64,000 nucleotides of DNA from Daedaleopsis sinensis (Eukaryota; Basidiomycota; Agaricomycetes; Polyporales; Polyporaceae). The DNA is taken from the NCBI GenBank assembly GCA_033807695.1, contig CM066307.1, positions 868,001 to 932,000 on the forward strand. The letters run 5' to 3'. Position numbers and translations under genes: made by a program. The notes under the pieces are model-generated. The model made no database searches. It worked only from the letters and a program-made list of their open reading frames with translations, and had not been told where the DNA came from. Positions 30,471 to 55,358 of this stretch are shown here, piece by piece; position 1 is the stretch's first letter; every line of letters starts with the position of its first letter.

Positions 30471-30929
30471 CATACGAGATGGATAGACGACATACCAGGC
30501 AAGGCAGAGCACTCTAGACACATAGGGAAGCACCTAAGGCGCGGCACGGTCTGCGGCACAACGCGTCTTCGAAGGAAGAGTCGAGGATCATAGCTCCAGC
30601 TAGTACAACCGAACCTACGTGCGCCACACATCCCCACCGCCCGCATGAGTCGCAACCCACAACGGAAGGTTATATCAAAGGCGCGGCCTTGCATAGAGTA
30701 ATACATAACGAGCCAACCACAGGGAGCAAACTAACGGATCCGCATAATCCGACATGTCAGAGTTGATACAGAGACGCTACAAGGAGACGGCAAACACATC
30801 CACCCTCCGGAGACCGGGGACTGGCACGAACCCAAATACACACGACTACCTAGTCAGGTTCCAAACCCACATCACATTCTACGCACTCAGCATCCAAAGC
30901 CACAGCACTTTCTAACCAATAGCAAGCAG

Positions 30930-33900
30930 TCACCCACTGCAGGCTCCACATTCAGACCGCGAACGGTCGCCGGAACGGAGGGCACGCACGAGAACCTCCT
31001 GTGGACACAGACGCGGACCTGATCAGACTCTAATGCCTAAAACCAATACGAAAAGCTCACCTGGCTAGAAACGACCCCACCAAACTCACCAGTCAGATCA
31101 CGAGGATCGTCATCGGCGACCGCGGGTTGTTCAGCCTCCGCCGACGTACTACTCCCAGCCACAGATGAACTGACGGACCCCAACCGAATCGGAATACGCA
31201 TCAGATCAACATCCGATCCGGACACACTCGACGACGTAGCGCTCCGCACAGAGCCGGTAACGGAAGACGGCACATTGTACGGTCCGTGCTCCGAACGCCC
31301 CACGGAACCAGACGGCGCCGACGGAACGGCGTAGGGCAGGGGGAACGTGGGCGCGCGCGACCGCAGGTAATACACGCCAGTCTTCAGACCGAGCCTCCAG
31401 CCATACAGGTAAAGGTCCTTCTGTACCACATATTTCATCAGGGACGACCGACGTTCGCAGACGGAAGCAGGACTGACCATGGACGCCCACTGCGGGGATG
31501 CGACATACAAGGACAAACTCTCGCTTTGATCCACATAGGGCGCCCGGTCCGCGGCCATGTCGACCATCAATTTCGGGTCGATCTCCCACACGGTGCGGTA
31601 CACGTCCTTCAAATCGGCGGGGAATCCGGGCACCGCAGCCACCGAGCCTGCGACATGATTAGAAAGAACAAGCAACGCATGACGAGCCGGATCTCACCGT
31701 GGTCGCGTACAATGGCCTGACGGAGCTCATCCGACCATAAGCCCCGATCTACCAGATCCCGGACCAACCACGGGCAAAACTCTGTGTATTCTCCACTCTG
31801 GAGCCGGTGAGTCGCGACATTGCTGCAACGACGCCGTAGCATCAGCGCCCACCAATGCAGAGACATGCAAATTAAACATACCCGATGCGAGGCTCCGTAC
31901 CCTCCGAATTGCCGAGCAGATGTGCAGTGGACGCGGTAGGCATCTGTGCAGTCAACATTGCATTCCGCAACCCGTGCTTCACGATCCGCCCCCTCAGACT
32001 CGCGAAGTCGTGCCTATCACTAGGCACCACACCCCATCGATCGGGTGCGAGAATCCCTTTGGACGCCGGGGAGCCGTCCCAAGCCGGGTACGGCCCAAGC
32101 TCTTCCGCGGCATCACAGCTCGCTTCCAGCGCAGCATGATAGATGGTCTCGAAAACGCGAACGTTGAAGACTTTCGCGTCCGCCGACGTGTACGGGATCC
32201 CCCGGGACCGCAGACAATCCGAGAAACCTTGGACTCCGAGCCCTAGTGACCTCCATGTAAGAGACGCCGTGCGAACGGACTCGGAAGGATACTGCGCGCG
32301 GTCCAGAAGGACGTCCAGGTTTCGAATGGCGATCTTCACTACTCGATGAAGAAGCGCGAAGTCGAAGGAGAGGTCCGGCTTCACGAACCGCGGCAGAGCT
32401 ACAGATCCCAGCGTGCACACGGCAGGCTCCCCGACGGCGCAATACTGAACGATCTCCGTGCACAGATTAGATGACTGGATCAGGCCACGATGGCTTTGAT
32501 TGTTCTTCGCTGTATCGCAACAGGATAACGTCAAACCGTGCGAGAACGTGAGTACAGTCCGCACGCACCATTAACAGAGTCACGAAACACGACGAACGGG
32601 GTACCAGACTCCCGCTGCGCCTCACAGACAGCTCGGAAAAGCATGTTTGCAGAAACCGTCGTCTTCGTGGCCACCGCCGCCTCGTACCCCTCATACAGTG
32701 CGTCGAACTCAGCACCGAACACGTCGTTCAACCCCGGGACGTCGACGGGGTCGAAGAGCGTCCACGAGGAGTTCTGCTCCAACCGTCTCATGCTACAGAT
32801 TGTTAGCGGAGCGACATGAATGCAGCAAAACACGCACAATATGTCAGGCACGAGCACGCCCGGGAACAGATGAACCGGCCTATTGCCCGGTGCGACCTTG
32901 GTCGTCCTGCACATAAACAAAGAACGGACCTCCATGTGCCACATCGAGATATATACGGCTCCCGAGCAGGGTCGCCGGGAACCACTGGAGGAGAGATACG
33001 CAGCGTGACTGTCGTAGAGCCGCAGGAGTTGCATGACGCCGGGAGACGATGGAACCCCATTCCTGCATACGAGACACAGTCAAAAAACGGAAACGATCAA
33101 AAATCGAGCCAACGCACCGCCGAGCAGGGACCTCCGCAAACGACATCCCGACCCCCCCACCAGATCGCCACAGCAGATCGAGCTCCGTGGCGCCGCGGAG
33201 CAGGCTAGATGGGCTCGAAACGTCAGGCTGGAATATGTAACAGGACGCGAAGTTAGGTGCGGCGGTCCCTCCGTTGCAAGTGATAGGCGTCGCGTGTGTG
33301 TAGAGTCCGCGAGATAGAACATCGTAAGTCTCCAACACCTTGGCCAGGTCTGACCTGTGCACTGCGATGGCGATCCTCATGTGAACGAACTGAGGTCGTT
33401 CAACAGGGGTCTTGAGCAGAGCGGACCTGGACAAGTACGACTGGACGAGACAATGAGCGCTGATGCTGCGATGCGTCGTCAGATCGAAACACGCGCAAAT
33501 CCGCGGGGATACTCACTACCCCAACCCATAGTCACGGCTATGAACGAGCGCGTTGTCGAGCTCCGCACCATGCAGGACGACCGCTTCCAATAGATCCGGG
33601 TGCAAAGAAAGATCGGTAACTAAAGACAGACAGTCGAGTCAGGAACGCGACCACACCGAATGCTCAGCACGTACTGTTGGAATGAACCCAATGCGAAAAA
33701 GACTTCGGCACGAGCTTATGGATGTTTGCTATCAAAATTCTCCCAGCCAGCCGGCTATAATCGGGGTGACGACCAGCGAAACTCGCGACACAGGACGCGG
33801 TGAAGTTCTGAGCCGGGTCAGCGTTGTGCAAACCGGACCGCGCGACATTTACCTGGAGCTCGTAGGTAGTCGTTTGAGGTCTAACACCACCGATGATCGT

Positions 33901-34114
33901 CTTGAGAAGCCTGACGGACGCCAACAGTCAGCCCTGAAAACAGCACACGCACTTTGGAGTGGTCGTGGCGACCTCAGCCTGGAGTGGAACGTACAGGCGA
34001 TAATCGATGTACTTCGAGTCCAGATCCCAGGACAGCTATGATAGTCGCCGTCAGTACACGAAGAGGACAGCGGAGCACACGAGTGAAACATACAAGCTTC
34101 AACGTATGCAGTAC
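30930..34114 (-). CDS. Ribonucleotide reductase, class I large subunit (divergent)
   Basis: Catalytic (R1) subunit, which reduces ribonucleotides to dNTP precursors. Twelve exons: 34114-34094, 34035-33995, 33910-33853, 33807-33675, 33619-33520, 33459-33118, 33062-32838, 32792-32569, 32509-31882, 31822-31698, 31647-31061 and 30998-30930. They sum to 2553 nt, a multiple of three. Visible in order are an ATP-cone-like N-terminus (TTTYELQ, HPDYSRLAGRI), ERPQFVHMR, FASCYIF with the first active-site Cys, NLCTEI with catalytic Asn, Cys and Glu, PTASTAHLLGN, and TGVYYLRSR with the radical-transfer Tyr pair. The last 69-nt exon ends ECGACSG, the thioredoxin-reduced Cys pair. Blocks that are nearly invariant in fungi are altered: GVMQLLRLYDSHAAYL instead of the usual GLVPMLRVYN type. 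The first exon or start codon is unresolved, because an in-frame TAG lies upstream of 34114. It pairs with the small subunit at 53.7 kb. Confidence 0.88.
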
Positions 34115-34930
34115 CTAAGAAATGGAGTCAACACCAGTAACGTCACGGCTCAAGAAACGCACGGACTTTACCGGCGCTGAAAGGCTGTGCCTCGCTGGTG
34201 AGATGACGTCAGCGCTGCATCTCTTGTACTACTACTGGAACTGACGGACCCGCCTGCAACATTGAACCACGTGCGTCAGATATCAAAGATGCGACCGTTA
34301 TGCTACGCCAGACTTACTTCGTTTCACCACACAGAAATTCGGGACTACGTCAGCCATCACAGAGTAAAGCAGATAAGGCGGATTCCAAGTTTGCGCGGGT
34401 TGAGAAAGTTGTGAACGGACCGCACGGAATGGGGATGCTATATATCTTACTCGTTCTTATTACACTGCTCTGTCGGGTATAGCGTCCGTCGCGCGGACAT
34501 GCGCAGAACCCGCCTGAACAGAACATTGCGGAAGAAAAAACTGCCCGGTACCAATAGCGAACCGGTGCGGCCGTGCAGCATTCATGTCCGGGACGGGTCA
34601 AACTATTCCGACGCGAAACGATGGGTGTGCTATACAATCAGGGTTCTACAACACGAAGGAACAGGGCAACTACGCACCCGGGACGCTGCGCAACCTCGTC
34701 GCCGCCGCAGAAGGCTCAAGTACCGGCTCGGAGAGCTCGGAGCACAAAGCACAGAAAGGGCCGCCAGACAAATCCTCGCACACTCTCTGATGCAATAATG
34801 GACGGTATGCGCGGCCACCCGAAAGGCAAAGCTGCCTCCATGTTCGCTAGTTGCTAAGTCACCACTCCGCCGATGTACTACGGCATCTACTGTAGGTCAG
34901 CGGCACCGGCAGGATCCTAGCTGGTCAAGT
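34115..34930. other. Intergenic or 5' end of large-subunit gene
   Basis: It probably holds the missing first exon and promoter of the reductase large subunit. A minus-strand stretch reading SVRFLSRDVTG just above 34114 resembles an R1 N-terminus but is cut off by a TAG. Plus-strand frames at 34.57-34.86 kb have no support. Confidence 0.35.
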
Positions 34931-34946
34931 CTAGGCCAGTGTTCTT

Positions 34947-37163
34947 GTGCGCAACACCGCTGCTGCGTGTGGTCGGTCCGGTCCGATTGCAGCGAGACGT
35001 AGGAGTCGAGCATTAGGACCGCTCACGGCCACTGTCTACAAGTCCGGTCAACAAGGTCACGTACATATGGCGCTCAAAGATGAGGTAACAATCGACGTGC
35101 TAGAATCAACTACGTACCGGCTTCTCACCCGGGCAGACACGAACCAGGTCGTGGCTGAACTGCTCCTGTGCAACGGCGACACTGCGGGCTGCGCCTTAAC
35201 GGCATCTGGGCCTGGAAATCGGCAATCGATATTTTTGACTATAGCAGTTCCGTGTGGGGATCGCTGACACGCTGCTCTATGGCCACTAGGCGGGTCACAG
35301 TGACCGGTACTGAATCCGATGCAATGAGAAGCGGTCCGACTCTGTAGTAGCTCGAAGGGGATGCTTAGCGCAGAGATGTGCCGGTACATGGAGTGCAACG
35401 TTGCACGACTAGACGGCAAGGGTTAGAGTGGGATTCTGTGGCGCGAAGCAATCCTTCCTCACGTATGCATAGGTCATCGTTCAGCTCCGGCATTACGGGC
35501 AAGGCCATCCCGACAGAATGATGAGCGACAAGTCCCAGATGGTTTATAATCAGCAGGCACTTACAGCCGGTTCTGCATCGGCTCCAGTCTCACCACCAGC
35601 AGCTGTTCGACGAATCTTGACATGGAAACGCTCCACCGTAAAGCGGTAGGGTACTGGAAGAAGCACACTATCCACGATGGCGACATCCCCTTCGAGACCG
35701 CAGCACTATCTGCGGGCGGGACGATGCAGCTGTTTGACGCCAAGAAAGTCGGCGATGTAGAATGGGTGGTAAGCCAACCACACTTGACATACAACTCTTG
35801 ACTGACTTACCACGTAGATCTGCAAGCCGGGAGAAACCACGCCGGCGTCGTTCAGCTACGCCGCTATTGTTTCTATTGCGGACCCGATGGAAACCGGAAA
35901 TCTGGTCATAGACATGGAGAAGCGCCCGGACGGGCTGCCTGCGACAAGGGTGTGAGTGAGCATGCTCTCGCTTCGCTGGTCGACCATTCACGTACGAGAT
36001 GTAGAGAGAAGTGGGCTAGCTACAAGTGCTCGTACACGTACGTATTCGATACGTCCGCGGATCAAGGCCTGTACACTCTGCAAGGCGTGAGTATATGTTC
36101 TAGACGAGTGACTCGTAGCTCACCGCTTTGCTGTATACAGGTTATGGACAGATACATGGAATCCCTCCCCGAGTTCGCTTCCGAAGACCAACTACCGCGT
36201 CGGCTATGGCAGTCTGGCAACCAGGTCCAAGCGCGCTCACAGTTCTGGATGCGCGTGCCCATGTTCATTCGGGTCCGAGAGGGCGAGCGGAAGCAGGACC
36301 CGCCGGATACTGTGCACGACTGGGTGAAGATTGCAGACTCTAGGTCGATGTGGTACCGAGCGAATCCTTCTCCTCCGCAGGTACACGAGCTCGTAGACGG
36401 AAACCTCAAGCCAATAAGCGAGTGTCAACCGCCGAAGCTCATGCGCGGAGACGCGGTCGCGATCTCCTTCACGTTAATATACGTGGTGGGCAGAAAGGAC
36501 TGGTACCCGGTGTACTTCCTGACTCGTCTAGTACGTGTCGCGAAGGGAGCAAGCGTAGTCAGGTCGACAAACAGAGACGACAATGAACGTGCCGATGGAG
36601 AGGTAGTTCCTGCCCCACCTCCTTCTCAGATCCGTCGCGATATCGGTGAGCGTTGTGTGCACCGTGTATTTTGGGCGCGCGTGCTGATGTCATTATATGC
36701 AGGCGACGCTACTGGATTGCGACCAGACGCGTCCGACGGTCGACGGAAGCGGCCCCGGAGCGAGGCCACGCCTCAGCAAGTACAGTCCGGCGACGATGAA
36801 GATGTCGTCGAGTGGCCGGCGTCAGACGACGAGCGGCACGCGTCGAAGCGTCGCCTCGCGAATGCCATTGCGGGGCCCTCCCGTACTCAGCTAGAAGATT
36901 GCAGCGATGACGGCGGACAGGCGGCCTCGCAAGGCGCGGCTGGCGCCGCAGCTGCCCACGCCGACGTGAGCACAGACGGATCTTCGGATGAAACATCCTC
37001 TTCCATGTCCTCTGTCAGCACGATTTCCACGAGCTCGTGTGAGCCAGTGGGACTGGAGCTTGGACAGGTTGAGGTGGCGGCTGGCGAAGAACAGCAAGAC
37101 GACCCCAAAGGGAAGCGAAGGGCTGATACAGCCACGAAGCGGCGCACGAGGGGCAGTCGCTAG
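34947..37163 (+). CDS. Unknown multi-exon island gene
   Basis: The 3' part is certain as coding: from about 36139 an open frame runs to 37163. It contains SQFWMRVPMFIRVREGE, VHDWVKIADSRSMWYRAN, then RGDAVAISFTLIYVVG and PVYFLTRLVRV, followed by a long acidic, Ser-rich, disordered tail ending with a basic KGKRRADTATKRRTRGSR that looks like a nuclear signal. Upstream exons are likely at 35620-35770 (HDGDIPFETAALSAGGTMQL) and 35819-35952 (ASFSYAAIVSIADPMETGN), joined by GT-AG introns. A further one may lie at about 35040-35150 (EVTIDVLESTTYRLLTR). I do not know the family by name. The RGD-aliphatic-ISF block recurs in degraded form near 22.9 kb. The 5' end is uncertain. Confidence 0.55.
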
Positions 37164-37399
37164 GAGCGGTGCATGAAGTCTTTCCGGTTTGCGCGTGTAG
37201 AGCGAATCCTTGGCAAGTGTTGATCATACGAAGGTCCAGGTGTAACAGTTAGTATAATGTGCTAGATCATGGGTTCCGCAGCTTACTTACAAAGTATACG
37301 TTGACGTCAGAGACGGTCCAGACCAGCATAACGAGGTCTCATAGTGGGAAGTGTCAAGGTCAGTGGCGTAGGGTGCGGACCAGAGCGCTGTATGTACTC

Positions 37400-39480
37400 T
37401 GTAGTAAGTTACGGTGAAACCAGCTGGGCCACGTCCTCGGACCCGCCACACCTCAGTAACAGATGTATAACATTTGCGGGTGACGTTGTCGGAAAGTCAG
37501 GAACCACAGCCACATGCACGCCAAAAGGCGACTCACAATGCAGTGGCGGCAGCACGTATGCTCGATGTGTATCTTGAATGGCACGACAAAGAGTCGCCGA
37601 GCGACCGCTACTGTATCGAGAGGCAACTACTAGCGGTCCACGCCACGGATGCAAGTTACGGACGTCGCGCAGGTTGTGCTCGACGAAGCCCGGGAAAGGT
37701 ACTTTATCGATCAGGGAGAAAGAGGTTCGCGGCCTGAAAAGATACATGTAACGAGTCGCATTGTCGGAATTTACCAGTCGCCGCCAAGTTTCTAGCACGG
37801 TCCACGAGAGAACGACCAAGACATTTGCATTGCGAAGAGGTTCAGTAGCCAAGAAAGTACTTCAATAGACGTTATCATGCACGATATCGGCGGACCGCCA
37901 TGCGCCTCTTCCCTGTATATGAATGGCCTCGATTGAGACCTCGGCATCGAGCAATAGAAGCACTAGACACTCACCTCCATATTTAGCATGTTTAGCAATA
38001 CTCGTACGATGCAGGGAACTCGCGAGTGTTGAGTACCCGCAGCGTGACTCCGTCTCGACTTGTCCGCGGAGGGATGGCCCGTACAGGACAACTTCGGACG
38101 CCTGCCCCGTGCGCTGTGAGTAGACATCAGCTTTCGAAGGCAAGGCAGCGAAGTCGAACCAGTAACGACCTGAGCAGTCGCAACCATCACGGCCGTACGT
38201 GGCGAATCTCCGTAGGATCCACTCGACCAGACGTCGTCTGAAGCGGCCGGCGCGTCCAAAGGGGAGTGAAAGGGGAAAGGGAAGCTGAGTGAAATAACGG
38301 GCTGGGATCAATGTCTAATAAGCGAACCCGGACGACGAAAGACGCACGAGAATGTACCGGAGGGGCAGAGACCTGAAGGACTTCGCCTACTGAGTGCAAT
38401 GAAGTCTACGTCGCGGTACCGGGCGAACGGGTCTTGCACAGTAACGCGGTAAAAGGTCGGTAACTCGTCCTGTTCGTGCACAACAGATCAGAATAGCAAA
38501 CGTAGCGATGGTGGGGACGAGCTAGCACCCACTACCGTCAATCCTACGCCGGAGACTGGGTTCACCATGGGTGACTTGAATGGTCTGACGGGCGACGGTT
38601 GGAGGATCCCCGAGAAGCCACGCGTATCCCACCATGGCGCACAGCCAAGGGCTACCTCGCGCTGCTGTATGGGCTCAGTGACCGCAGGAGACACGTGCCC
38701 GACCGAGACAGGAAAGACGGGCGTTGATACCGATTGCTTGACGGTGTGAACTTTGGGAATGTTAAGAGTATGAACCCGCCAGCAGAGCGCGAGACATACC
38801 GTACTGTTCCCCATCACCACGCTCCGGGTCCGAGTCGTGTGTATCAAACAGTGTCCGGAATGCGGCGTACGATAGGATGTTGGTTTGTGCGCATACGCAC
38901 GGAATGTCTGGCTGGCGAGCGACCGTGAACACAGACAGCCGCTGGTGATCGAGACTTCCTTGTCCACGGTCGCAAGGAATCCCAATTGCATGACAGCGTC
39001 CGCATGGACCATCCCCAGAGTCGGGACGTTCGATGCACTGAGGGGAGACAGGCACAGGCATCTTCGATTGTAGCTCGCAAAGGAAGGAAACCACAGCAAA
39101 ACACACTCACCGGTCGGCCACCCCTCTGGCAAGAGAAACAAGGATGCACTCTCAGCTTCGGAGACCCGTAGCAGCCAAGTACCACATCCACTCCAGGTCG
39201 ACGGAGCTACCGTTGAAAGGCGGACTTGCTCAGGTTCCCGCGTGTTTGGAAACACAAGCAAACTACTCACCAGGGCCATGTCGCAGAATCTTCGGCCGAC
39301 CAACGCAACGTCTGAACCTGTCCGGACGAGAGGGGGCAACTTGTGTGCTGGACAGACCTGTTCAGGAGGGAGCGCCATCCGGAAGGACGTTTCACTGGTT
39401 CGGTTTCGGTAAGCGTCCTGCGGCACCAAGGAAAAGAGTATGCGGATGAACAGGACCGGCGACCCGGAAAAGAAACCTGC
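37400..39480 (-). CDS. Unknown multi-exon gene with Cys-x2-Cys cluster
   Basis: Several consecutive minus-strand exon-like segments carry good donors. They include ALPPEQVCPAHKLPPLVRTG and VGRRFCDMALV then GTGAGT; a segment with LLPEGWPTG then GTGAGT; and a well-supported exon starting near 39057 with MPVPVSPQCIE, PCGRCHAIGIPCDRGQG and PDIPCVCAQTNILSYAAF, ending at GTATGT. Further exon-like stretches lie at 37.9-38.2 kb and 37.4-37.7 kb. The PCxRCxxxGxPC pattern is a short Cys cluster that often marks small zinc- or nucleic-acid-binding segments in Agaricomycete proteins; a similar one occurs at 62.5 kb. A 342-codon frame at 38488-39516 is read-through of introns, not the protein. Exact boundaries are unresolved. 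Confidence 0.4.
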
Positions 39481-39989
39481 GAGGCAGGCTGGGGAAGATA
39501 AAAGAGTGAAAGACAAGAAGTCCAGCAGCAGCGCTGGGGGAGCCCTAACTGCGCTCGTCAGGGTTCTGGGAGAAGGAGGCTGAGGCGAAACGGACGTAAG
39601 GCGCGCTGGGCGCCTTGGACGCCCGTCCGCAGTCCCGTCTTAATCGGGTTTTCCTCCACGTCCACCTCTCCGTCGCTACACCACAACAATCCCGGATGGC
39701 GTGGCCAGGCCCTGGACATCGAGATGGCTGTTCAGTATCCCTGCCCCGGTTTTGGACCACTGTCCTCAGAACACCGCCCCGTAGCAGCTCGGAGTAGACA
39801 TGATTATCCGTCGCTATACGGAACAATTACCAGCGCATTGATACAGTCGGAATGACCTACACGTCGACAGCCAGACTATCCGTTCTCGTCTACAAAACCC
39901 GGATACTCGTTAACGTGGGTCTTTAACAACATGCGATGAATGCAGCGCTCACGTATGTCAATGCACCACCGGGCTGTTCAGCACAAATG

Positions 39990-40865
39990 TTAGGCTGCAC
40001 GACACGGAGTTGTGCAGACGCGTACCTTAACAGGGAAGTAGGCTACGGATGTCCAACCATCATTGGTCGGGACTACAGGTAGATTACCGTCTTGCTCCCC
40101 GACTCGATGTCCGAACGAGATCACGACAGATCCTTCATGTCCGAACGCTCCAGTACCCTCACGACGTGCCCACCCTCCTCCATCCTCTCGGAAGAGCTCG
40201 AAACCTCTATATGCGTACTTTGCGATTGCTTTGAGGTCCCGGCGAGAGAGATAGTCTCCCTTCACGCGTCCCTGGCGAGTGAAGGTATCACGGGGATACG
40301 AGCAACCTGCTCCATATGGCGTAACGAAATTCTTCACCAGAGTACACCAGAACCCGCGTAACGGCGTGAGCGGGCTAGAGTCGGTGCTCCTGATCACGTC
40401 GACGAACCGTGCGCGGGGTGTTTGGAATCGTCGCAGCTCTTTCACGTAGGCGACTCCTGATAGACCCGACGGCCTCGATGCATGCTGCTGAGTTCCCGGT
40501 GTCCGAAAGTGAAGGCGAGAAGCCGCGGCAGCGACGAAAGCGTCGTACATATGGTCAGGAACGTAGATGTCGAGGTCCCCAGGAGTCCACAATTCGAACG
40601 GTAGGATGAATTTCAACGCGACCGATCCAGATATCACGCCTCCGTGTTCCCGCAAGATCTCGTCGAATGTCTGGATGTCGGAAACGAAAGGACGCACGGC
40701 ATCTTCGTATCGAAAGCGCAGCTCAACGCTGACTGCAGCATAGAACGTGGTGCACGTTCCGCGCCACGACAGAAGAGCGACGAAGTCGCTGTGCTCGATA
40801 ACCACGAAAAGGACCTCGACGGGCACCCTTGGAAGGTACCGGGTGAGTAATATGCCACAAACCAA
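39990..40865 (-). CDS. F-box protein with nucleotidyltransferase-like domain (copy 1)
   Basis: The N-terminus (RYLPRVPVEVLFVVIEHSDF, then WRGTCTTFYAAV) is an F-box-like helical motif for SKP1 binding. It is followed by GGVISGSVALKFI and DLDIYVP, the G-S and D-x-D signature of a nucleotidyltransferase-fold domain that commonly follows F-boxes in Agaricomycetes. The two aspartates are retained, unlike in the two island paralogues. Further blocks are FVDVIRSTDSSPLTPL and KNFVTPYGAGCSYP. The upstream end is uncertain: the frame opens at a TTG with no ATG before the F-box, so a short first exon is probable. Confidence 0.65.
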   Translation of the reverse strand: MVCGILLTRYLPRVPVEVLFVVIEHSDFVALLSWRGTCTTFYAAVSVELRFRYEDAVRPFVSDIQTFDEILREHGGVISGSVALKFILPFELWTPGDLDIYVPDHMYDAFVAAAASRLHFRTPGTQQHASRPSGLSGVAYVKELRRFQTPRARFVDVIRSTDSSPLTPLRGFWCTLVKNFVTPYGAGCSYPRDTFTRQGRVKGDYLSRRDLKAIAKYAYRGFELFREDGGGWARREGTGAFGHEGSVVISFGHRVGEQDGNLPVVPTNDGWTSVAYFPVKVRVCTTPCRAA

Positions 40866-41029
40866 GAACTCGCGCGCACCTCCAAGTCACTGTGATGCCC
40901 GACTCTAGGCCGCCGGCTCCCGTCACTGTAGAAAGCACCATAGTAGTCGGTATCTAACGGGTGGCGACGACAAGCCCAGGTCAGCCTTTTCGCAGAGTAG
41001 ACACAGTGCAACGACGTACAGATGCTCCT

Positions 41030-41990: not shown

Positions 41991-41999
41991 ACAACCTGA

Positions 42000-43077: not shown

Positions 43078-43079
43078 TC

Positions 43080-44400: not shown

Positions 44401-44429
44401 GCGTTCCTTTAAATCCACCCGGCAGCATG

Positions 44430-45230
44430 CAGTGCCTCGCCGTATCCGTGAGTGTCTAGTTCGCGTCTTTCTAGGAGATAAGGTTGACGAATGGACCCTC
44501 GCGACTGCGGAGACCGCGCCAGCCCTAGTAGACTGCGAGCACCTCCTCCGTGTTGTACATAGGACCTATGCATTACGAGATGCCGACAAGTGCCAGGTAT
44601 GCAACCCACGTCCATCAATGAGGAGTGCACGAGGTGCACAGGTAACCAGCGCGTTTCCCATTCTTCCATCGTCTTTGCTAGCTTCTCGATCACGGCACTC
44701 GCAACGCAGGCAACAGACAACGTCGTCCGGTGCGATGGCAATTCACAATTGCCGGCCGTAGGAAGGGGAATCGGCCTCCGCGCAGCGTCCATTATCGTTT
44801 CATTCAATTCCAGTGTTCCCAGCCGCTGCACACCTAATATCCGGTACTACCCACCAGAAGGGACGCTGTGCACCGGTAACGATTCTGCGCAGAAACAACC
44901 ATCGCTTGCAACGCTGCGTCAAACACAAAGATATCGCGCGGCTACCAGCTTTGCACTCCACGCCGAGGTTTCACATCTCGACCATGGTCCGCGCGTCATG
45001 CCTCGTCCAGGGTCCATGTATAAAACATGGAGCAATTCCTTGCACTAGAATTAGCAAGCTACACCTGCGCGAACACCGTATCCTCCCTGTCGTTGTCCCC
45101 GTCTCGCCGCTCGGCTCGTATAGACTAGTCGCACGAACAGTTCCGTCCGTTAGCGCACCCATACTACGGACAACAACCACGATATCAATTACGAGGACTT
45201 ACAGTTCGTCGCCCTCCGCCTTATAGACCA
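44430..45230 (+). other. Possible unknown gene
   Basis: The plus-strand segment LVRVFLGDKVDEWTLATAET, then LVDCEHLLRVVHRTYALRDA, looks coding. It may continue to 45.2 kb (PALHSTPRFHISTMVRASC). No start or complete splice path was found. A minus-strand frame over the same stretch is a weaker alternative. Confidence 0.3.
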
Positions 45231-45354
45231 TGTCACTGACAGATATTCCCTTTCTGTATTCTAGGCGATATCTGCAATGCCTCTTCCCCCGGCACTGGGA
45301 CCGTGTTCCCATCGCACGCGCATATTCACTGAGTAAGTGACAACTGATAGCTAC

Positions 45355-46569
45355 ATGACCGGTGCACGACGCTCACCACCTACAAGGCTTCCTCTGGAAC
45401 TACAGGATGGCGTGTTCTCCTACATGACCATAGTGGACGTCGTCGCTTGGAGAAACACCTGCAGAACCGCATATGGAGCGACGACGATCTCTCTCAAGAG
45501 GCGGCTCCACGTGCTGCTCGCACCGTTCGTCCCTCACCCAACGTCTTTCCTGAGCGAGCTATTTCGCTACAGGGCTCTGATCGGCGGACTTCTCGCCCTC
45601 GCCTTCGTGGTCGTGGATCAAGACTTACGGTTCCCCGTCGTCGACGTGTTTGCACCGGACCTGCTCTACCCCGCACTCGTTACCGCACTGCAAGCCATGG
45701 TACACGAAAACCTCACGGCTATCACTGTCGTGTCCACCCTCCACGCTACGTCGGTCCGGGAGATCCTTGAGACTACCACGTTACGGCTCACGAACGGGCG
45801 CGCGATCGTCGTCTACAGATCGTCGACCTGGAGCCCATTGCTCCCGATATGCAGATCCCCCTCCTCGCTTCTCTTCAACTACGTCTCCCTGACTTCCTTT
45901 GGATGTGGCTACCCTACCCTTACTCTCCGACACCGGGGTCTACTCGCGGACATCGTCCTCCTCAGCGCACTACCCCAGGACCTGCACGCCATGAACACTG
46001 TGACGGACCGCGGCTTCGACATATCATGGTCACCAGTGCGCTTCGCGAAAGAGGACAAGATCGCGCGGCGCCTTCGGTCCCTCAACCCCACCGTCTCCGT
46101 TGACCTTGCGGTCGCCGTCGTCGCATCGGAGCTGCGCCCGGATTATGTGGACCGCCCTGCCACCCCCGCACGGCGATTCCGAACCGTGTGGGGCGCTCCT
46201 CCATTCCACGTCCGGGCCAGCTGGTCCCCTTTCCCAGGTAGCCAGCCCTGTCTCAGTGTCCGGAACATGTGTCCGCAACAAGTACGGTTCTTCGGTGATG
46301 CAGCGTCGTTCATCGACTTCCTTGATCCCCTGTCTACAGACCGACGGGAGCTGGAGGAGAAGTGCATGTCCCCGTTCGGAACTGTAATCGCTTGGAAACT
46401 ATGCAGCTCGTACAGGTGTGGCGGTGTGACCAAGTGCGGTCCCATTGTGCCTTGCGGGATGCTAGTGGACAACGGCATCGTCCACCTCCCAGCCTTGAGT
46501 GGGAATAATCGGTTCGACCGTAGCGTTGCGAGGCATCACCCCCCCATCTACCTTTACCACATGTACTAA
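45355..46569 (+). CDS. F-box protein with NTase-like domain (copy 2)
   Basis: An intronless frame of 404 residues from ATG 45355 (MTGARRSPPTRLPLE). The F-box-like N-terminus is LPLELQDGVFSYMTIVDVVA, then WRNTCRTAYGATTIS. Next comes RYRALIGGLLALAFVV and VVDVFAPDLLYPALV, which aligns with the GGVISGSVALKFI and DLDIYVP parts of copy 1 but has lost the DxD pair. The closest relative is the gene at 55.6-56.8 kb: both share SWSPVRFAKED or SWSPARFAKED, MCPxxxRYFGDAASF-like and FGTVIAWxL motifs. F-box proteins target substrates to ubiquitin ligases; the target is unknown. Its stop lies about 470 bp from the 3' end of the convergent Helitron gene. Confidence 0.75.
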   Translation: MTGARRSPPTRLPLELQDGVFSYMTIVDVVAWRNTCRTAYGATTISLKRRLHVLLAPFVPHPTSFLSELFRYRALIGGLLALAFVVVDQDLRFPVVDVFAPDLLYPALVTALQAMVHENLTAITVVSTLHATSVREILETTTLRLTNGRAIVVYRSSTWSPLLPICRSPSSLLFNYVSLTSFGCGYPTLTLRHRGLLADIVLLSALPQDLHAMNTVTDRGFDISWSPVRFAKEDKIARRLRSLNPTVSVDLAVAVVASELRPDYVDRPATPARRFRTVWGAPPFHVRASWSPFPGSQPCLSVRNMCPQQVRFFGDAASFIDFLDPLSTDRRELEEKCMSPFGTVIAWKLCSSYRCGGVTKCGPIVPCGMLVDNGIVHLPALSGNNRFDRSVARHHPPIYLYHMY

Positions 46570-46776
46570 ACATATGCACCATATCCGATTTCAGAACGGA
46601 ATAGACGAGTATCTGCAGGTCATCCTATGACCATGGGAACCTGACCATTGGACAAGCCCGGGTGTCACGACTGATACCATGTACTATAGTGATCACCATA
46701 CGACCTTTGGTAAATTCAAAACATCCGTGAGGGTAGGAGAGTACCCAGTCGAGCTCTCGCTCTTGCCCAGCTAAAA

Positions 46777-46816
46777 ATGTCGCTTGTCCAAGGCTTAGGA
46801 CATTCACAAGCGACAT
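46777..46816. other. Perfect 11-bp hairpin, candidate Helitron 3' structure
   Basis: ATGTCGCTTGT at 46777-46787 and its exact complement ACAAGCGACAT at 46806-46816 flank an 18-nt loop. It lies about 225 bp beyond the stop of the minus-strand Helitron gene. Read on that strand it is followed by TTTTTAGCTGGGC, which contains a CTRR-type CTGG, as at Helitron 3' ends. Position and orientation fit; the true terminus is not proven. Confidence 0.45.
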
Positions 46817-47041
46817 GTCGCGAATCCCAACAACTTAAGAGTTATCGCATCCGTGACGTCATCATGTTCCAGTCCCTCTTCGCACGCGTGTTCTCCACGG
46901 TAACCTTCGTGTCCCATCTCCTCTTATGGATGCGCCCGCTCGACAGCACAATCCGCTACAACCAGAACCAAGTAGAGATGCCAATCCACGACAAACAGAG
47001 CCAAGTATAATACACAATACGGAACACATCCCGCGCGGGAG

Positions 47042-50000
47042 CTATAGCAACCGTTCTTCCCTTGTGAGGTACGATACCTTGCATTTCACGTCCAGATTCT
47101 CTAAGCGTTGAAGTTCATCCTTTAGATCGCGTCGCAAATCCGTATGTAACTTCTTCCTCGTGAACGGTCGCAGTATACCCAAACCACTTACGCTCCTCAC
47201 TCTCGACAGCATTACATATACACCCTGCAGACTACGCGCCGACGCGACATCCACTATTGCAGTACTGAGAGAACGTCCTTGTGCCTTATAATCTGTGTAA
47301 CAGTACGCGGGGAGGATTGGCAGCTGAGTCCTACTGACCTGAAACGCCTCTTCAGGCGCGCTATCAGTTGCGCGAGTGCGAATCCATCGGAATGTCACCT
47401 GCACTGGGAAAATCGGAACAATGTCGTTCTCCAGTCCCTCCAGCAGGGTTCCAGCTCCAGGGATATGCACGTACACCACTAAGGGATACCTAAGGCCATC
47501 TTCAATAACAAATCGAATGTCTTTCACCGTGCCTATAGCTCCGTTCACGACGTGATGCGAGAAGGCCAGGTTTTCTTGGACCATGACACGCATACCCGGA
47601 AACAGCTGTATCTTTGGGGGTGAATCTTTTGTATGTTTGCCTCTTAACTTCCATATCACCTCGCGATCCGGAGACTGTACTGAGCGCCCTCCAATACAAT
47701 CCCTCGCATGGTACGTGTAGACATCACGATTCAGCGTACGAGCGTGCCGGCGGAGCAACAGCGTATTGATGGCATCTCTAGGTTCCTTTAAACCCACGAT
47801 CACCGGAGTATCAGCGAATGAAGTTGACGTCCCGTCTTCGCCCGTTACGGTCCTCGACACTACACGCTCCGTTAGGAAACTATGATCGTCCGCTTCTCGA
47901 CGAAAAAACGCGTTGTCAGATCCTCCTACGCGGACCCGGTCCAGCAATTCTGCGAATTTGTTGTCTCCCTCCTGTCGCTGGTTCTTCCGCAAGATTACAA
48001 CATCTTGTACCGACCGCCATATGAACACCCCCTTCAACGCCAGCACACCCTCCCCAGAAGAAGACGCGGCGCGCTGCGAGCGTGCACGAGACACCAACTC
48101 GTGGTTATATAGCGCGGGTACCCTCACGGGCTTCAGCTGGCCAAAGTCTCCCGTGAAAATCACGTTCACGCCCCCGAACGGTTTGTCACCAGATGCGGCC
48201 GTGTCTCCCTTCACTCGCTGGATACGTGCCGATATCTCGGCCAAAGTGGTAGCCCCGACCATGGACACCTCGTCCAAGATCAGGTAAGTGACATGTTCCC
48301 ATATCGCGATCAGCTCCGATAAGTCCTTCGGCAGAGCCTTTGGCAACATCACTAGCGAGTGGATCGTGTAACCTCCAATCAAAATCGCAGCAGCACCAGT
48401 AGGAGCTGACACTAATACCTCCTTCCTTCGCCCTAACAGATCAAATAACCGCAATATAGCATTCACTACGTGGGACTTGCCCGTACCACCAACACCGCCT
48501 ATGTACATGAGCAGCTGTCGATCCTCACCTAAGCAAACATGACGAGCAACAGTTTCAAACGCCCTGCTTTGTTCCTCGTTACAGTCCAAGCCGAACTCAT
48601 CCGCAACTTGCTTTATGTAGCGTTTGTACAGCTCGGGCCCTTCCAACACCTCGTCAACCTCCCCGTTCACGGACGTCCCCGCAAGGCGAGACGTATCGAC
48701 CGTCGCTAGCTGAGGATATGAATTTGGCCTACGACGCTTGATGGGCGGTGCGACAGTCGTCTCAAACGTAGGCCTCCTTCTTTTGCGGATACTAGTCATT
48801 CCCTTCAGTTGACTTTCTATAGCCGTCCTCTCCTCTACAGTCGCTTCCCTCGCACTACCGTCTGCATGTGGTCTGCCGCGTTCCACCACCACCGGGAACC
48901 GGTATTCCAGCGCAACTCTCGCAGGGAGGCCGATAAGCTGATCAAGTTTCTCGATCAAGCGATGATCAGGATCATCCGCCTGGAGTGGGTCGAGTATAGT
49001 GTGGTCGAACAGCGACGGCTCATCACCCGCATTCAGAGCATCGTCGACCTCTCTACGCATGCGCATTCTTTCGGCTGCATCAATCCTCGCTGCACGCTGT
49101 TGCTCTCTATTCCGATCCCTGGCATCCTTACACTCCGACAGGACGTTGACGTTCTTCACGATCTTCGCAAACTCCGGCGCAATAGAACCGCTTTGCCTAA
49201 CGTACGCCTCATGCCACGACTCGTCCGTGTGCTTCAAGTCGCTAGCGTTTCGCCATGGTACAAACAGAACGAGCACAGATTTCGACCAGATTTCTCGCTC
49301 GTGCTCTCCCGCTTCCGGCCTAGGCACAGCACTACCCAGCAACACAGGAATGACCCACAGCACACGCTTTCGCACCATGTGACTGTCCCGCTGAGGATGA
49401 TTCTCAATGAAAGCACCTCGCATCTGGGGGGGGCGTCCCCGCCTCCTTCGCTCCCCGCTTTGTCTCCCGACGCTTCCACTCCCCAATCTAGTACGCTCAC
49501 TCGCGCACGATATCTTCTCTGTTAGACCAATGAACTCGTAAAGGCACATACTGTCAAAGGGTTCCACATCTGGCCTAAGCAGGTAGTCTTGCTCCTGATT
49601 CACTGCCGTGCTTATACCCCTGTCCAACGTCAAGATCACTGTATCGCCGTTGTCCTCGCATTCAGGCTCGCCCTCGTCGGCGGCATTGCTCTCATCTGCC
49701 GCTTGTTCGACCTCTATATCAACCATATCCTCGTCGTCCGGTTCGAGTGCCGGTTCGTCCCCGTCGGCGACGGATATTCGATCGGACCCGGTAGAGCTCC
49801 AGTATTGATCCACGTTCTTCGTGAACCTCGTCAGATAAAGCAGTCGGAATCGGTGACTAGTGTAATAATCGCCACCGCCTACTAGGTAACTCATTACCTG
49901 CTGATGGGAAATCTCCATACGGCTTAACATGCTGTTCACCACCATACTCATCGCCGACCGCTCCGCAGACGGAGTCCACTCCGGGGACGCACCGAATCGT

Positions 50001-53000
50001 ACGTTGCTGCGTTGAATGGCATACGTAAGAGCGGCTAAGCCCAAATGCGCGGGGATGGCCGCTTTCGTGATGTAATCCGTGATATAGTATATCAAAGCCT
50101 TCGCACCTTCGCCCGATCCGATGTGCTTCACATCCATGTTGCACTTCATGAGGAACACTACCAGGTCATTATAGTTAGCAATCATGCCGTGAAACCTCCT
50201 GAGCAGAATAGAACCGGTCTCGTCATCGATGACAGTCTCGGCACGCGTCGTACCGTCCATGCGCATGCGACAGTTCCCGTCGGACCTCGCATCCCCCCGC
50301 CGAAGGTACTTCCAACAAGTCTCCGTGTGTTCGTGCCAGTTGTATCTTTCCACTAGGAGATTCACGTACGACTGGTACCGCGCTGCAAAAACCGTCGCCG
50401 GCAGATCATCGCGCAGCAAAGGACCGGTCACTGCACCTGGATGGACAAAACCTTCGCTTTCCGGGCGGACCGGTCTTTGCGGTGGATCGGATCCAGGAGG
50501 AGGTGGTCCGAGTGTGCCGAGGAATTCCGACTTGATGATACCCTCTAACCACGCAAACATATCTGTCTGATATTGCTCAGAATCAATCATCATGCGCCTC
50601 ATCTCCTGCGGCGACGGATGTCCGTCAATCCAGATCAACATATGACAATGCAGCGTACCTCGGACCTGGCACTCAACAGTCCCATAATACGCAGAACATT
50701 TCCCGAACACTCCCCACTCCGATTTGTTGTATCGTAAGATCACATCCACGAACAGCGATATCATAACATGGAAGAATCGGGCGCATGGCCCAGGATTTCG
50801 CGCGACCAGCAACCTCCGGTCCCACTCACTCAAAACCTCACCTCCTTCCATCCTACTCAAGTCGATATCTTCGCCGGACAGAAGGCGTACCAGAGGATGA
50901 GTAACGTCAGATGGGTTAAGCGTTACGAAGAACGCCGGGGTACCATGAAAATGGACCAACGATCTGATCTCGTTCCTTAAGCGAAGACGGTAACCCGTCG
51001 TGCCTGGTAAATCCTTGAGCACGGCCCCCACACTGTTCATCAGCTGAAGCAAGTCACGCTCCCGTGGACATCCAGTCTGGTACGAAGGGTTGTTGCAGAA
51101 CTTACTCACCAGTCCGTCTAGCAAGTCCCGGTCTACAGCCATCAGGCGCTGTACGATAGACCGCTGCTCAGAAGCCTTTACCCGGAATCGAATCGACTCA
51201 CATACCTTCTTCTTTCTCAGGATATTGAAGTAAACGAACGCGAAATCGTTGTCTCGTTCGAATATTCCATGGTGCAACTGCAGCATATATCGCAGCTGCT
51301 CTTCCATCGTAATAGGGGTTGCCCGGTCCGGGTGATGAAACCCGCCGATACCCCACGGATCTAAGTGAGGGAACAACCAAGTCAGCAGCTTCGAGTTCTC
51401 AAAGTCAGGTACTATCCACTCCCCCGCCCGCGAACGTACAAATCTGCCACGGCTAAGACAATGATGCAATGCTCGCAACTTCATTTCTCGATATGACTCC
51501 GGAGAATCGTCACCCTCAGTGTAGCCTACACTCTCCATCAGGATGTCAGTGCAGTCATCCGGCACATTTTCGTACGCGTTTCGGGTACTGTAATCTTCAG
51601 AACTCTCATCCGTCCCGGCACCTTCCTGCACAAAGCCCACGTCCAACGCGCACGGAACCCCAACACCGAGTGCCTTGTCGGCCTCCGACAGCAGGCCCTC
51701 CAAGTTCCGAGCACTGTAACCATGGAACTCGGTATCAGTCATATAGTGCGCGTTCGACCCGACCAAAAACAGTACAATCTTGCGGACTGTAGATGGCCGG
51801 ACCAGCACTGGACCAAGCTTCCGAATGGTCTCCTTAGTAGGCATGGTCCTGCCTACAAAAACCGCACACGCCGCGTCCCTGACCTCGCTCGGAGGCGGGG
51901 GAAGGACGGCGTGCAGAAAGGTAGAGTCCTGCGGCATTATCAGAACATTCCCTTTCACAAATCGCTGCTCAGCTGACCTATCCCCTCCGGAGCTCCTCCC
52001 CTTTGACAACTCGCTGAACCTAAACGACACCCGACTCGCTCTCGCTCTTGCTACCAGTATCCTGTCGAACTGGCTGCTCGATTGAAAGGCAGCCTTGACG
52101 TCGCTAGGGAGTGCATCGTGGCCATAATACAACCAGTTAGCGAGGCATAGACGCGGCATCCTCTTCTTCTCAACAAGCTCTCTGTCACAATCTCGGCACA
52201 TCGAGATACGCGCCAGCCGCCACGGGTCCTCCATCCCGGCCGGGTCTAGGAGCGCGTGCCCGTACAGTGCCATGTCATAATCCCTAGGCAAACAGCCGAC
52301 GGGCAAGCCTCGATTCTGTAGCAAGGCCAGATTTGCCTCGGAGGACGGCACCATACGAGAGCTACTTTCCGTGCATTTACGCGCACACACCGCGCACGCC
52401 TTGACAACAAAGTTCGAACTCTTCATGTTATCCTGCCACTCACCTATGATAAGTTTTCGTGTGGCATCGTCAACCGGTCGCATGAACGACCTGTCGAGAT
52501 CGTCTGCACCGGAAGCCCAGATCTCGCGCTTGCGCTCCACTGTGTGAGATGGCCTTGCTTCCTGCAGCTCCGAAAATATCAGTACGAAACGCCCACATTC
52601 ACCGCACTGATGGTTACGAAGCTTTGCACGGATATCCAATAGTCCGTCACGCACCCTACAGGAGATCCCATGGACGCGGGCGAGCTCGCGAACGTCCCTG
52701 GCTTGCCACAGGCTGAACATAGTCACTGCGACAGGCAACGAAGAGCATACCAAAATGTCCCCCGGTTCCATGGAAAGGCACTGCACAGTCACCTCACCCC
52801 GAATCGGCAAGATCCGAGAGAATCCATGTGTGAAGTCCATAGAGCCCGGGGCGACCTCGCAGAGACGTAGGCACGATCGGCCGTCCACACACTGTCGGAG
52901 CACCGCTATCAAGTCAAGGTATATATACGTGAGCTTTAGATATCAGAGTGTCTCGAGGCGATACACTCACCACAGAGCGAATCGCCGTCAATTATTGTCT

Positions 53001-53030
53001 CGTGCCGGCCAGAGAGCACATCTAAGATCG
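47042..53030 (-). CDS. Helitron Rep-helicase transposase (HUH + PIF1-like)
   Basis: A rolling-circle transposase. The main exon is 52905-47042, open for about 1,950 codons, and a short upstream exon (53030-52971, ending IIDGDSLC) splices into AVLRQCVDGRS; further 5' exons are possible. Domains in order: an N-terminal region with HGISCRVRDGLLDIRAKLRN and paired Cys (QCGECGRFV); a CRDCDREL...LANWLYYG segment as in DUF6570; the Rep domain with FFVTLNPSDVTHPL, RGTLHCHMLIWIDG (HUH metal site) and LIYYITDYITKAAI (two-tyrosine nuclease helix); and a C-terminal SF1B helicase with GGVGGTGKSHV (Walker A), LILDEVSMV (Walker B), FTGDFGQLKPV and a final DYKAQGRSL...VMLSRV block. All catalytic motifs are intact and there are no frameshifts, so the element may be recently active. 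Host PIF1 lacks the Rep half. Confidence 0.9.
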
Positions 53031-53736
53031 CTGAGAAACATACTATCAGGCTCACGAACACACACTCGAACATGTCCGAACTCACACGCAGTCTCGGCGG
53101 CCTCCACCCCGGAATGGGACGATCTATCCGCGACGAATTCATGGGATTCCGCTGCAGCACACGTCAGCGTCTGAACCAGCAACCGAAGAATGTCTCTTAC
53201 GAATAAGGCGATCAGTCCCAGCCGCAGAAGATAGCAGAGCGACGTCTGCAGCAAACAGAGCAAGTTCCGAACATGTCGAAGAATCCATGGCTCCATAACG
53301 CACTCAACATACAACGAAACATATATAATCTGGAACCACTGACATGGGTTACCGCTCGACGTGAACTCATCCACGTCAGGAATGCGCGTCGCTGTCGTTC
53401 GCCGCAGCAGATTCGCGCGTAGCAACCCACACGACCGCCACTGAAGACCCTTTCAGCTCCTTCCAGCGGATGAGTCAGATATCAAAAACGAACCTCAACG
53501 TTCTGCGTACTTGCATGCCTGCGTACGCACGTCGAACCGCAGCAATATCAAATAGACCCTGAGTGCCGGATTCAGTGCTCGTTCATACGTCCCTCCAGGC
53601 CAACGAACCGCAGCGAGATCTTGTTGCAGATCCGATGCTGGCTAGGCGGTGTCCGCAGTCGGCCCAGCGGCACCACGGGCACACTTAAGACCTGTGCACA
53701 CTGATCACAAAGTCCCTCAGTCTACCAATACCAACC
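53031..53736. other. Region between Helitron 5' end and small-subunit gene
   Basis: It probably contains 5' exons of the transposase on the minus strand (for example a frame with ATRIPDVDEFTSSGNPCQ near 53.37 kb) and the promoter of the reductase small subunit on the plus strand. The element's 5' terminus should lie here if it is a simple Helitron, but no clear end was recognised. Confidence 0.35.
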
Positions 53737-54933
53737 ATGTCTATGCTCGACGACCAACCTGATGTGCTCCCAGCCTTCCCTTACCGCTCCCCATACGTCC
53801 TTTTCCCGATCGAGTACCCCGCTGTGCGCCCGTTCCCATCTCTTATTCCCTAAACTGTGCTTACTGCGAGTAGATATGGGACGCCTACAAGCTCGCACAG
53901 GCGTCTTACTGGACCGCGGATGAGGTCGACCTGTCAGAGGACGCGATTCAGTGGCGCACGTCTATCACGGAAGAAGAACGCGAATTCCTATCCGTGATAT
54001 TCGGTTTCTTCGCGACCGCCGACGGCATTGTGGTCGAAAACCTCGCCCTACGTTTCTGCAACGAGGTGCAGATGCCCGAAGCAAAGTGCTTCTACGGCAT
54101 GCAACAGGCGATGTCAGTCACATGTCAGCATGCTATGTCGGTACTGACTCACCTCCATAGCGAAAACGTCCACGCAGAGGTGTACAGTCGGCTGATCCAG
54201 GAGCTAATCGACGACGCATCGCTCCAGGCCAAGCTGTTTCACGCGATCGAGCTGCTTCCTGCAGTGAAAGCGAAGGCAGAGTGGTGCATCCAGTGGACTG
54301 ACTATATGCGTGTCAGTTTCTCCAAGAGACTGGTAGCGTTTGCGATAGTGGAAGGCGTCCTATTCTCCTCCTCATTCGCCGCCGTCTTCTGGCTCAGAGA
54401 CCGGAACCTCATGCCCGGGCTCACCTTCGCAAACGAGCTCATAGCTCGAGACGAGGGACAGCATACCGATTTCGCCTGCCTCCTTTACAATCATCTACCT
54501 GAGAGGCTCGCCGAAGGCGAGGTCTATGCCATGATCAACGAGGCCGTCCAGCTCGAGCACCGGTTCTTCGCTGGTGAGCCTGGGTACCGCATACAGAGAG
54601 TTATATGTACTCACTGGTCCTCGTAGATGCTCTTCGTAGTCCGTTGACCGGGCTGACCGTAGACATGATGGTCGACTACGTCGAGTACGTTGCAGACTAT
54701 CTGCTCCTCCAGCTCGGATATTCGACCTTGTACAACAAGTCCAACCCAGTCAGTATGCCGCCGGAGACGAAACGTGTACCCACTGACCATCAATCCGACA
54801 GTTTCCGTATATCGACAGGACTGTCCTCGATGTCAAGACGAACTTCTTTGAAAGACCTGTCAGCGAGTATAGTGTTGGAGCCGTGACGAACGAGCATCCC
54901 CTGCACAAGCGGCGAGAAGTTATCGCGCCGTGA
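53737..54933 (+). CDS. Ribonucleotide reductase, class I small subunit (divergent)
   Basis: The R2 subunit, which houses the diiron site and tyrosyl radical used by the large subunit. Exons 53737-53823, 53874-54112, 54161-54573, 54627-54748 and 54802-54933 sum to 993 nt, 330 residues. The second intron is 48 nt and in frame, so a naive frame reads through it. Iron ligands and the radical tyrosine are all visible: Asp in FATADGIVVEN, Glu in MPEAKCFYGMQQ, His and Tyr in ENVHAEVYSRLI, Glu in VAFAIVEGVLFS, and Glu and His in NELIARDEGQHTDF. KTNFFERPVSEYS marks the usual C-terminal region, but the predicted end (HKRREVIAP) lacks the acidic-aromatic tail by which R2 normally docks to R1. Either a last exon is missed or docking differs. 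Confidence 0.88.
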
Positions 54934-55307: not shown

Positions 55308-55358
55308 TACAACTGGAACTGTACACGGACTTAGACTACCTGGTACACTCTAATCAGC

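Follow-up and report, generated by a model that had tools for sequence, protein, structure and literature searches.

A stretch of 64,000 nucleotides of Daedaleopsis sinensis DNA (contig CM066307.1, positions 868,001 to 932,000; hereafter the window, whose own coordinates are used throughout) holds a complete giant Helitron of 42,864 bp, in which the two subunits of a ribonucleotide reductase (RNR), R1 and R2, lie on either side of a Rep-helicase transposase. The element is a member of an amplified family with about 26 RNR-bearing copies in the genome. Taken together, the data make it likely that this is a giant autonomous Helitron2-like element, the captured fungal RNR of which would supply deoxynucleoside triphosphates (dNTPs) for the element's own replication. 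Its principal features are as follows.

19407-62270, minus strand (element 5' to 3'), 42,864 bp: whole giant, putatively Helitron2-like element; sharp ends against a near-identical copy on contig C1 with unrelated flanks; termini recurring genome-wide
62181-62270, minus strand: element 5' end, ATTCCTGGACACGATC...; a hairpin inside the first 28 nt; first 88-92 nt common to five short, apparently non-autonomous elements at 92%-100%
19407-19445, minus strand: element 3' end, ...GATCGTGTCCAGGTCTGCCCGGAGGGCCCTACGTAT; matches the 5' end as an asymmetric inverted repeat; a further inverted repeat, GCCC-GGA-GGGC, lies 9 nt from its terminus
47042-52912, minus strand: Rep-helicase, 1956 aa, uninterrupted; DUF6570, Helitron_like_N (HUH) and PIF1 helicase by Pfam
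30930-33807, minus strand: R1, RNR large subunit, about 10 exons, with N-terminal exons further upstream uncertain; spliced alignment to protein P0001, Pfam PF02867
53785-54885, plus strand: R2, RNR small subunit, 5 exons; spliced alignment to protein P0123, Pfam PF00268

Ends of the element

Comparison of the window (contig C8) with the C1 copy revealed 99.7%-100% identity over 19407-35000 and 52362-62270, while the flanks beyond 19407-62270 are unrelated to each other on both sides. The R1-R2 spacing of the two copies agrees to 6 bp, and in the genome Pfam search both Rep-helicases lie in an open frame of 1966 codons and have nearly equal scores. For the left flank at 15001-19406, there is no paralogue among the DNA-search matches listed.

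Both termini recur throughout the genome. If up to 2 mismatches are allowed, the 16-mer of the 5' end is found 148 times, compared with 8 times for a reversed control; for the 28-mer of the 3' end, with up to 3 mismatches allowed, the numbers are 31 and 0. The motif CCTGGACACGATC is located 3 bp from the 5' end, and in each of the six 3' ends read it returns in inverted form 23 bp from the terminus. A T directly precedes the element in 17 of the 19 5' ends read (13 of RNR copies and 6 at other places, two rows with 2 mismatches being left out), and by eye no target-site duplication was seen in the six giant copies and six short elements of which both flanks were read. The canonical Helitron1 ends (5'-TC...CTRR-3') are not found, as the element starts with ATTCC... 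and ends with ...CTACGTAT. Compared with shuffled sequences, the 5' hairpin folds with z of -2.5 to -2.8 in three variants.

The five short elements, of 361-373 bp, share with the giant not only its first 88-92 nt but also its last 39-40 nt at 97%, and their interiors have no match in the giant's first 601 or last 600 nt. They look like its non-autonomous partners. Given that they carry the same two ends, they independently confirm that 19407 and 62270 are real transposon termini.

The two long copies also differ in some details. The C1 copy has an extra insertion of about 3.6 kb at window position 30149-30159, with 11 bp present on both sides, and lacks window 27333-27433. A stretch of 106 bp at 22342-22447 is inverted between C8 and C1 at short inverted repeats (GGAC/GTCC), possibly a small invertible segment or the product of a template switch. 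In a DNA search, window 28640-28840 matches sites on C4, C5 and C10 that face each other in pairs at a distance of about 1.2-1.6 kb; it looks like the end of a terminal-inverted-repeat transposon within the giant element. Elsewhere, at C7:3917911-4146015, terminus motifs occur every ~10.6, 10.3 and 9.2 kb in three arrays, and one tandem repeat unit contains a 288-bp element with both Helitron ends; this region may be a large tandem array containing short Helitrons.

The Rep-helicase and its linkage to RNR

In a single frame of 1956 aa, the transposase matches Helitron_like_N at 114.1 bits and PIF1 at 83.1 bits, and has an HUH Rep domain fused to a PIF1-type helicase, as in the Helitron superfamily. 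It contains the motifs HCH, YYITDYITK, GGVGGTGKS and DEVSM, whose usual Rep-helicase roles we assume here. No endonuclease domain of the Helentron kind was found in this protein by Pfam at E <= 0.1.

Genome Pfam searches yielded at least 27 R1 sites, 29 R2 sites and 72 Helitron_like_N loci, exons being merged; 91 R1 and 72 R2 matches were merged by hand into the 27 and 29 sites, and the partial R1 match at C11:3199339 was counted together with C11:3178831. At 26 of the 72 Helitron_like_N loci, a divergent R2 is located 3.1-3.7 kb away, always on the opposite strand, and an R1 18.8-50.1 kb away, on the helicase strand in 19 and on the opposite strand in 7. The other 46 loci have no RNR within 26 kb. 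Conversely, these 26 loci account for every R1 site except one and every R2 site except three. The exceptions are the host R1 at C9:2927269, an adjacent pair of host R2 genes at C6:1327491 and C6:1329456, and an extra R2 at C3:1008427, about 5 kb from the R2 of the copy at C3:1002955. Chance linkage of RNR with the helicase was also considered, and is ruled out by the R2 - Rep-helicase - R1 block at 26 loci.

In at least 10 of the 26 RNR copies both ends could be paired by position and orientation, giving elements of 42.9-52.2 kb (C8 42,864 bp; C1 46,407 and 48,121 bp; C2 49,024 and 52,177 bp; C3 44,442 bp; C5 46,923 bp; C6 48,570 bp; C10 46,934 and 50,489 bp). Sequence from end to end covers the C8 and C6 copies, the 50,489-bp C10 copy minus about 2.5 kb and the first C1 copy minus its middle; the six other paired copies are represented by one or both ends and short loci, that on C5 by positions alone. 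Copy numbers were taken from the Pfam searches and not from DNA-search counts, two such searches having missed the near-identical C1 copy.

The original prediction had placed an RNR with catalytic residues in both subunits around an uninterrupted Rep-helicase, between 30930 and 54933, and suspected a giant Helitron-like element. The spliced models, motifs and Pfam matches bear out the former, whereas the exact ends, the recurring termini and the RNR pair beside 26 of 26 Rep-helicases of this lineage uphold the latter. The limits proposed at that time are too narrow, as the element spans 19407-62270.

Many RNR copies on different contigs (e.g. C2, C9 and C11) have equal or near-equal Pfam scores in pairs or triples, which suggests recent bursts, long-stretch sequence comparison covering the C8-C1 pair. 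Such near-identical pairs would also be expected if the copies were segmental duplications or allelic haplotypes with RNR loci merely near Helitrons. However, in C8 and C1, the one pair tested, the ends are exact and the flanks unrelated on both sides; moreover, the same termini bound short elements elsewhere, and 26 loci share one architecture. Duplication is thus extremely improbable as the explanation. Apart from this, the R1 at C11:3178317-3199554 has its C-terminal and N-terminal parts about 19.6 kb apart, probably owing to a nested insertion, and C11:2437926-2529461 is a cluster of seven Helitron_like_N loci with no RNR nearby.

The RNR genes

The spliced models of R1 and R2 are free of stops. 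In the alignment, R1 keeps the Cys pair, the NLC radical cysteine and YY, and its C-terminal exon ends with CGACSG at 30930, compared with CGSCSG or CGPCAG in other element copies and CLMCSG in the host R1. The metal-binding D, E and H residues and the tyrosine of R2 are present by eye in the spliced model. With the catalytic and metal-ligand roles that we take these residues to have, the pair appears to fit a class Ia RNR by what is kept, namely the barrel, Cys pairs and C-terminal CxxC of R1 and the ligands and tyrosine of R2.

Other parts are altered. In all six element R1s aligned, loop 1 is four residues shorter and Gln288 of loop 2 is replaced, with the next Arg-Pro kept (yeast numbering). 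The ATP cone is absent from the precomputed Pfam lists of all 12 R1 relatives from Polyporales, and a direct scan of five of them gave 19.5 bits for P0004 and 20.5 bits for P0011, under the cut-off of 25.8, and no match for P0005, P0009 and P0010; this result is limited by possibly incomplete gene models among the relatives and by the unsettled N-terminus of the window R1. Furthermore, none of the ten element-type R2 tails printed has the canonical C-terminal heptad F-x-L-D-x-D-F. The ordinary R2 tails of Orbilia, Suillus, Parasitella and a Bdellovibrionales bacterium end in this heptad or a near variant of it, and the tail of Sparassis does not. We infer that the changes in loop 1, loop 2, the ATP cone and the tail would loosen feedback control.

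These same changes might instead mean that the element R1 and R2 have no reductase activity and bind host RNR subunits or nucleotides, as a regulator or a sink. The missing R2 tail heptad, the altered loops 1 and 2 and the weak or absent ATP cone in relatives point this way. Nevertheless, R1 retains its catalytic cysteines, NLC, YY and the C-terminal CxxC, R2 retains its metal ligands and tyrosine, and both genes are under strong purifying selection (see below), which together make inactivity quite unlikely.

Origin of the element RNR

A protein search with R1 placed 12 proteins from Polyporales, at 42%-51% identity, ahead of all other proteins, and many multicopy R2 proteins from the same or related genera were found at 54%-61%. 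In 8 of the 12 Polyporales cases, an R2 lies on a contig of equal size (e.g. Daedaleopsis 3277499 and Ganoderma leucocontextum 41893), which serves only as a proxy for linkage. In the R1 tree, seven element R1s and 11 of the 12 Polyporales R1s form one clade with support of 100, Trametes cingulata P0011 lies just outside, and the host R1 groups near yeast and human (support 86-92); the 44 rows comprised 7 of 9 element models, the host, the 12 Polyporales proteins, 10 of P0013-P0120, human, yeast and 12 of 157 viral loci. In the R2 tree of 42 rows (8 of 9 element models, 2 host genes and 32 of P0121-P0240), eight element R2s and 14 R2s of the same genera are on one side of a branch with support of 96, whereas the R2s of Trametes versicolor and Sparassis are outside it and both host R2s group with Suillus and Athelia. 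The element RNR clade thus spans several Polyporales genera.

Intron positions were compared with this host. All six element R1 models share 5-6 of the nine host introns in place and phase, compared with a random mean of 0.16-0.25 and 0 of 20,000 draws for each, and five element R2 models share the two introns common to both host R2 models. Other R1 introns, at alignment columns 712 and 769 in all six element copies and at column 151 in four, are missing from the host; introns near the model ends are unreliable. In a constrained-tree test, with nine of the 44 R1 rows dropped as long or near-duplicate, grouping the element R1s with the host and yeast R1 gave a log-likelihood 22.9 above the free quick tree (approximately unbiased test, p-AU = 0.869), whereas grouping them with viral R1s gave one 20.9 lower (p-AU = 0.133).

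An endogenous DNA virus, or a virus-transposon hybrid with Helitron ends and a viral RNR, has to be weighed against these data. RNR is a common viral cargo, the size, the ~15 genes and the collinear core look virus-like, and the grouping of element with viral R1s is disfavoured but not rejected; in addition, introns can hold their positions over long times in eukaryotes, and the intron comparison involved one host. On the other side, capsid, polymerase B and packaging ATPase have no Pfam match in 8 open reading frames (ORFs) and 9 frame translations, covering most but not all of the element; the best 80 IMG/VR loci are only 33%-40% identical to the element R1 family (bacterial and protist R1s are mostly at 36%-40%); introns are common to element and host R1 and R2; and the fungal grouping scores higher. 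Viral R1 as the source was set aside on the grounds of this low identity, the better fungal score and the shared introns, and a viral origin of the whole is very unlikely. Given the introns shared with the host and the tree comparison, the element R1 and R2 would be captured fungal genes rather than viral ones, and a captured fungal RNR pair is probably the simplest source.

These results also bear on two further suggestions of the original prediction. Its view that the genes are not the housekeeping RNR of the host holds, as a separate canonical R1 and R2 that group with ordinary RNR were found in the genome, and the element genes are therefore not its sole RNR. The likeness to large DNA viruses applies to function rather than to descent: both the introns in common with the host and the tree comparison favour a fungal source, although the viral grouping was not rejected.

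Other genes of the element

Besides the RNR pair and the Rep-helicase, the element contains the following genes.

19597-20903, plus strand: conserved multi-exon gene near the element 3' end, by tblastn to a C10 copy; no Pfam match in three frames
23993-24901, minus strand: gene B, conserved ORF; ratio of nonsynonymous to synonymous substitution rates (dN/dS) 0.22
29331-30218, minus strand: gene C, paralogue of B, conserved ORF; dN/dS 0.19
35622-37163, plus strand: gene E, core gene conserved as far as the C6 copy
39993-40886, minus strand: gene F, dN/dS 0.17; no Pfam match; presumably with an F-box-like start and a GS...DLDIY nucleotidyltransferase-like motif
41975-43232, plus strand: gene G, protein-kinase-like; Pkinase 27.7 bits, under the 31.7 cut-off; conserved in the C10 and C6 copies
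43848-44357, minus strand: gene H, conserved in the C10 copy
45337-46569, plus strand: gene I, 410 aa; dN/dS 0.10; no Pfam match; start taken by us to be F-box-like
55574-56791, minus strand: gene L, 406 aa, paralogous to I, a single C6 gene matching both; dN/dS 0.10
57748-59406, minus strand: conserved exons of one or more genes; one weak zf-MYND match of 14.9 bits, under the 22.7 cut-off
60629-61447, plus strand: gene P, perhaps remotely related to B/C (hhalign probability 82, E 1.1e-5); dN/dS 0.21

Nine genes are kept in the same order in the window, a C10 copy and the more distant C6 copy, namely P, R2, Rep-helicase, I, G, F, E, R1 and B/C. With 35001-53800 as a DNA query, the C3 and second C10 copies showed this order as well, over the part searched. 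Further genes are common to the window and the C10 copy only; in C6 the B/C gene is inverted and L has no partner of its own. Sequence searches and structure models gave little on function: among eight whole ORFs only the Rep-helicase matched Pfam, six element proteins had no match in PHROGs, the B/C profile found a single match among PDB sequences, at E 0.79, and the predicted structures of B/C and P were too poor for use (mean predicted local distance difference test scores of 41.5 and 40.8).

The element RNR pair is under purifying selection. Between the window and the C10 copy, dN/dS is 0.061 for R1, 0.024 for R2 and 0.04 for the C-terminal part of the Rep-helicase, and 0.10-0.22 for B, C, F, I, L and P. 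Other distant pairs gave 0.073 and 0.093 for R1 and 0.066 and 0.12 for R2, so that the six distant pairs range over 0.02-0.12. The R1 genes of C2b and C1c have zero synonymous changes. As dS was saturated in 5 of 21 pairs and high in most others, these values are rough, and show constraint rather than exact rates.

A putative model for RNR-assisted transposition

The present data enable us to propose a putative model. Initially, an ancestor of the element would have captured a fungal RNR gene pair, introns included. In each round of transposition, the Rep would nick at the element 5' end and the helicase unwind the strand, and the element would pass through a rolling-circle intermediate. Meanwhile, the element RNR, with its altered allosteric parts, may raise the dNTPs for copying a circle of 43-52 kb. 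In non-dividing hyphae dNTPs are assumed to be low, and the supply would let the circle be copied while the host keeps them so. A circular intermediate is also how Helitrons are thought to move, according to parts of two earlier accounts (PMC6431247, PMC5148889). That the RNR feeds the element's own replication is plausible. For the fuller picture, a self-provisioning transposon with captured RNR and loosened allostery which makes its own dNTPs, copies large circles outside S phase and leads a virus-like life without viral genes, we see about even chances.

Several observations weigh against this interpretation. The Rep-helicase frame falls below 1900 aa in 5 of the 26 RNR-bearing loci (it exceeds that length in 21), and that of C10a is interrupted. 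Without the canonical tail heptad of R2, the R1/R2 pair must dock differently or not at all. No polymerase or single-stranded DNA-binding gene was identified among the element proteins scanned. The 3' GCCC-GGA-GGGC stem is present, but with z of -0.65 and +0.46 it folds no better than shuffles, and the assignment as Helitron2-like in form was made by the ends. The base-by-base comparison of C8 and C1 covers 19407-35000 and 52362-62270. Finally, the near-identical pair C9a-C8b has dN/dS of 0.19 (R1) and 0.42 (R2), with very few changes.

The chief alternative accepts a real giant Helitron but regards the RNR as a passenger, or as serving the host, for instance under nucleotide stress or DNA damage, and not the replication of the element. 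Host-helping cargo is a usual view of giant fungal elements, and R1 orientation and element size differ between copies. Yet if RNR were a passenger, many copies should have let it decay or lost it, whereas it is found beside every one of the 26 Rep-helicases of this lineage and beside none of the 46 others, remains under strong constraint in a multicopy family and forms a clade across several Polyporales genera, in a host that keeps its own canonical R1 and R2. We thus regard the passenger explanation as possible but rather unlikely, and prefer a captured RNR that works for the element.

In summary, a family of elements of 43-52 kb keeps a complete RNR pair and a gene set of fixed order under selection. 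If the RNR feeds the element, a way past the dNTP limit set by the host is open to transposons as it is to phages and large DNA viruses, and control of dNTP pools becomes a testable part of fungal genome defence. The changes in loop 1, loop 2 and the ATP cone are also a natural experiment in the allosteric control of RNR.

Comparison with known systems

Teratorn, reportedly a 180-kb element with a piggyBac-like transposase and herpesvirus genes and origin, is likewise a eukaryotic element of giant size with many self-encoded functions, but, unlike in Teratorn, there is no viral gene among the element proteins scanned. Starships are moved by a tyrosine recombinase. In contrast, the present element has an HUH Rep-helicase as its mover, and no tyrosine recombinase of the Starship captain type was found among the element proteins scanned by Pfam, which do not cover every ORF. 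It resembles Starships in that they too are giant fungal elements with cargo, given as 41,942-605,797 bp in the basidiomycete Tremella fuciformis in part of a recent report (PMC13066641).

DNA transposons that carry TET/JBP genes, Helitrons among them, are similar in being fungal and in carrying a full enzyme gene thought to aid the transposon, as described in sections of PMC12730594; however, they carry a dioxygenase and not an RNR, and the word reductase is absent from the main text of that paper. In a limited literature search, which is no proof of novelty, we found no published account of an RNR in a Helitron. Helitrons of the basidiomycete Pleurotus ostreatus also bear extra genes beside the helicase, but with 6.6-7.2 kb and one to four captured genes in the table rows of PMC4289320, whose main text has no word reductase, they are far smaller than our element. 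Fungal Helitrons reach up to 14 kb according to a passage of a review (PMC6431247). Closest in form are the Helitron2-type FoHeli elements of Fusarium oxysporum, for which parts of PMC5148889 describe a Rep-helicase, asymmetric terminal inverted repeats, a preceding T and non-autonomous relatives, all as in the present element, as well as hairpins at the termini of FoHeli1 and FoHeli2. Those two are about 6 kb and 5 kb long in the same source, whereas the family described here measures 43-52 kb and carries about 15 conserved genes, including the RNR pair.

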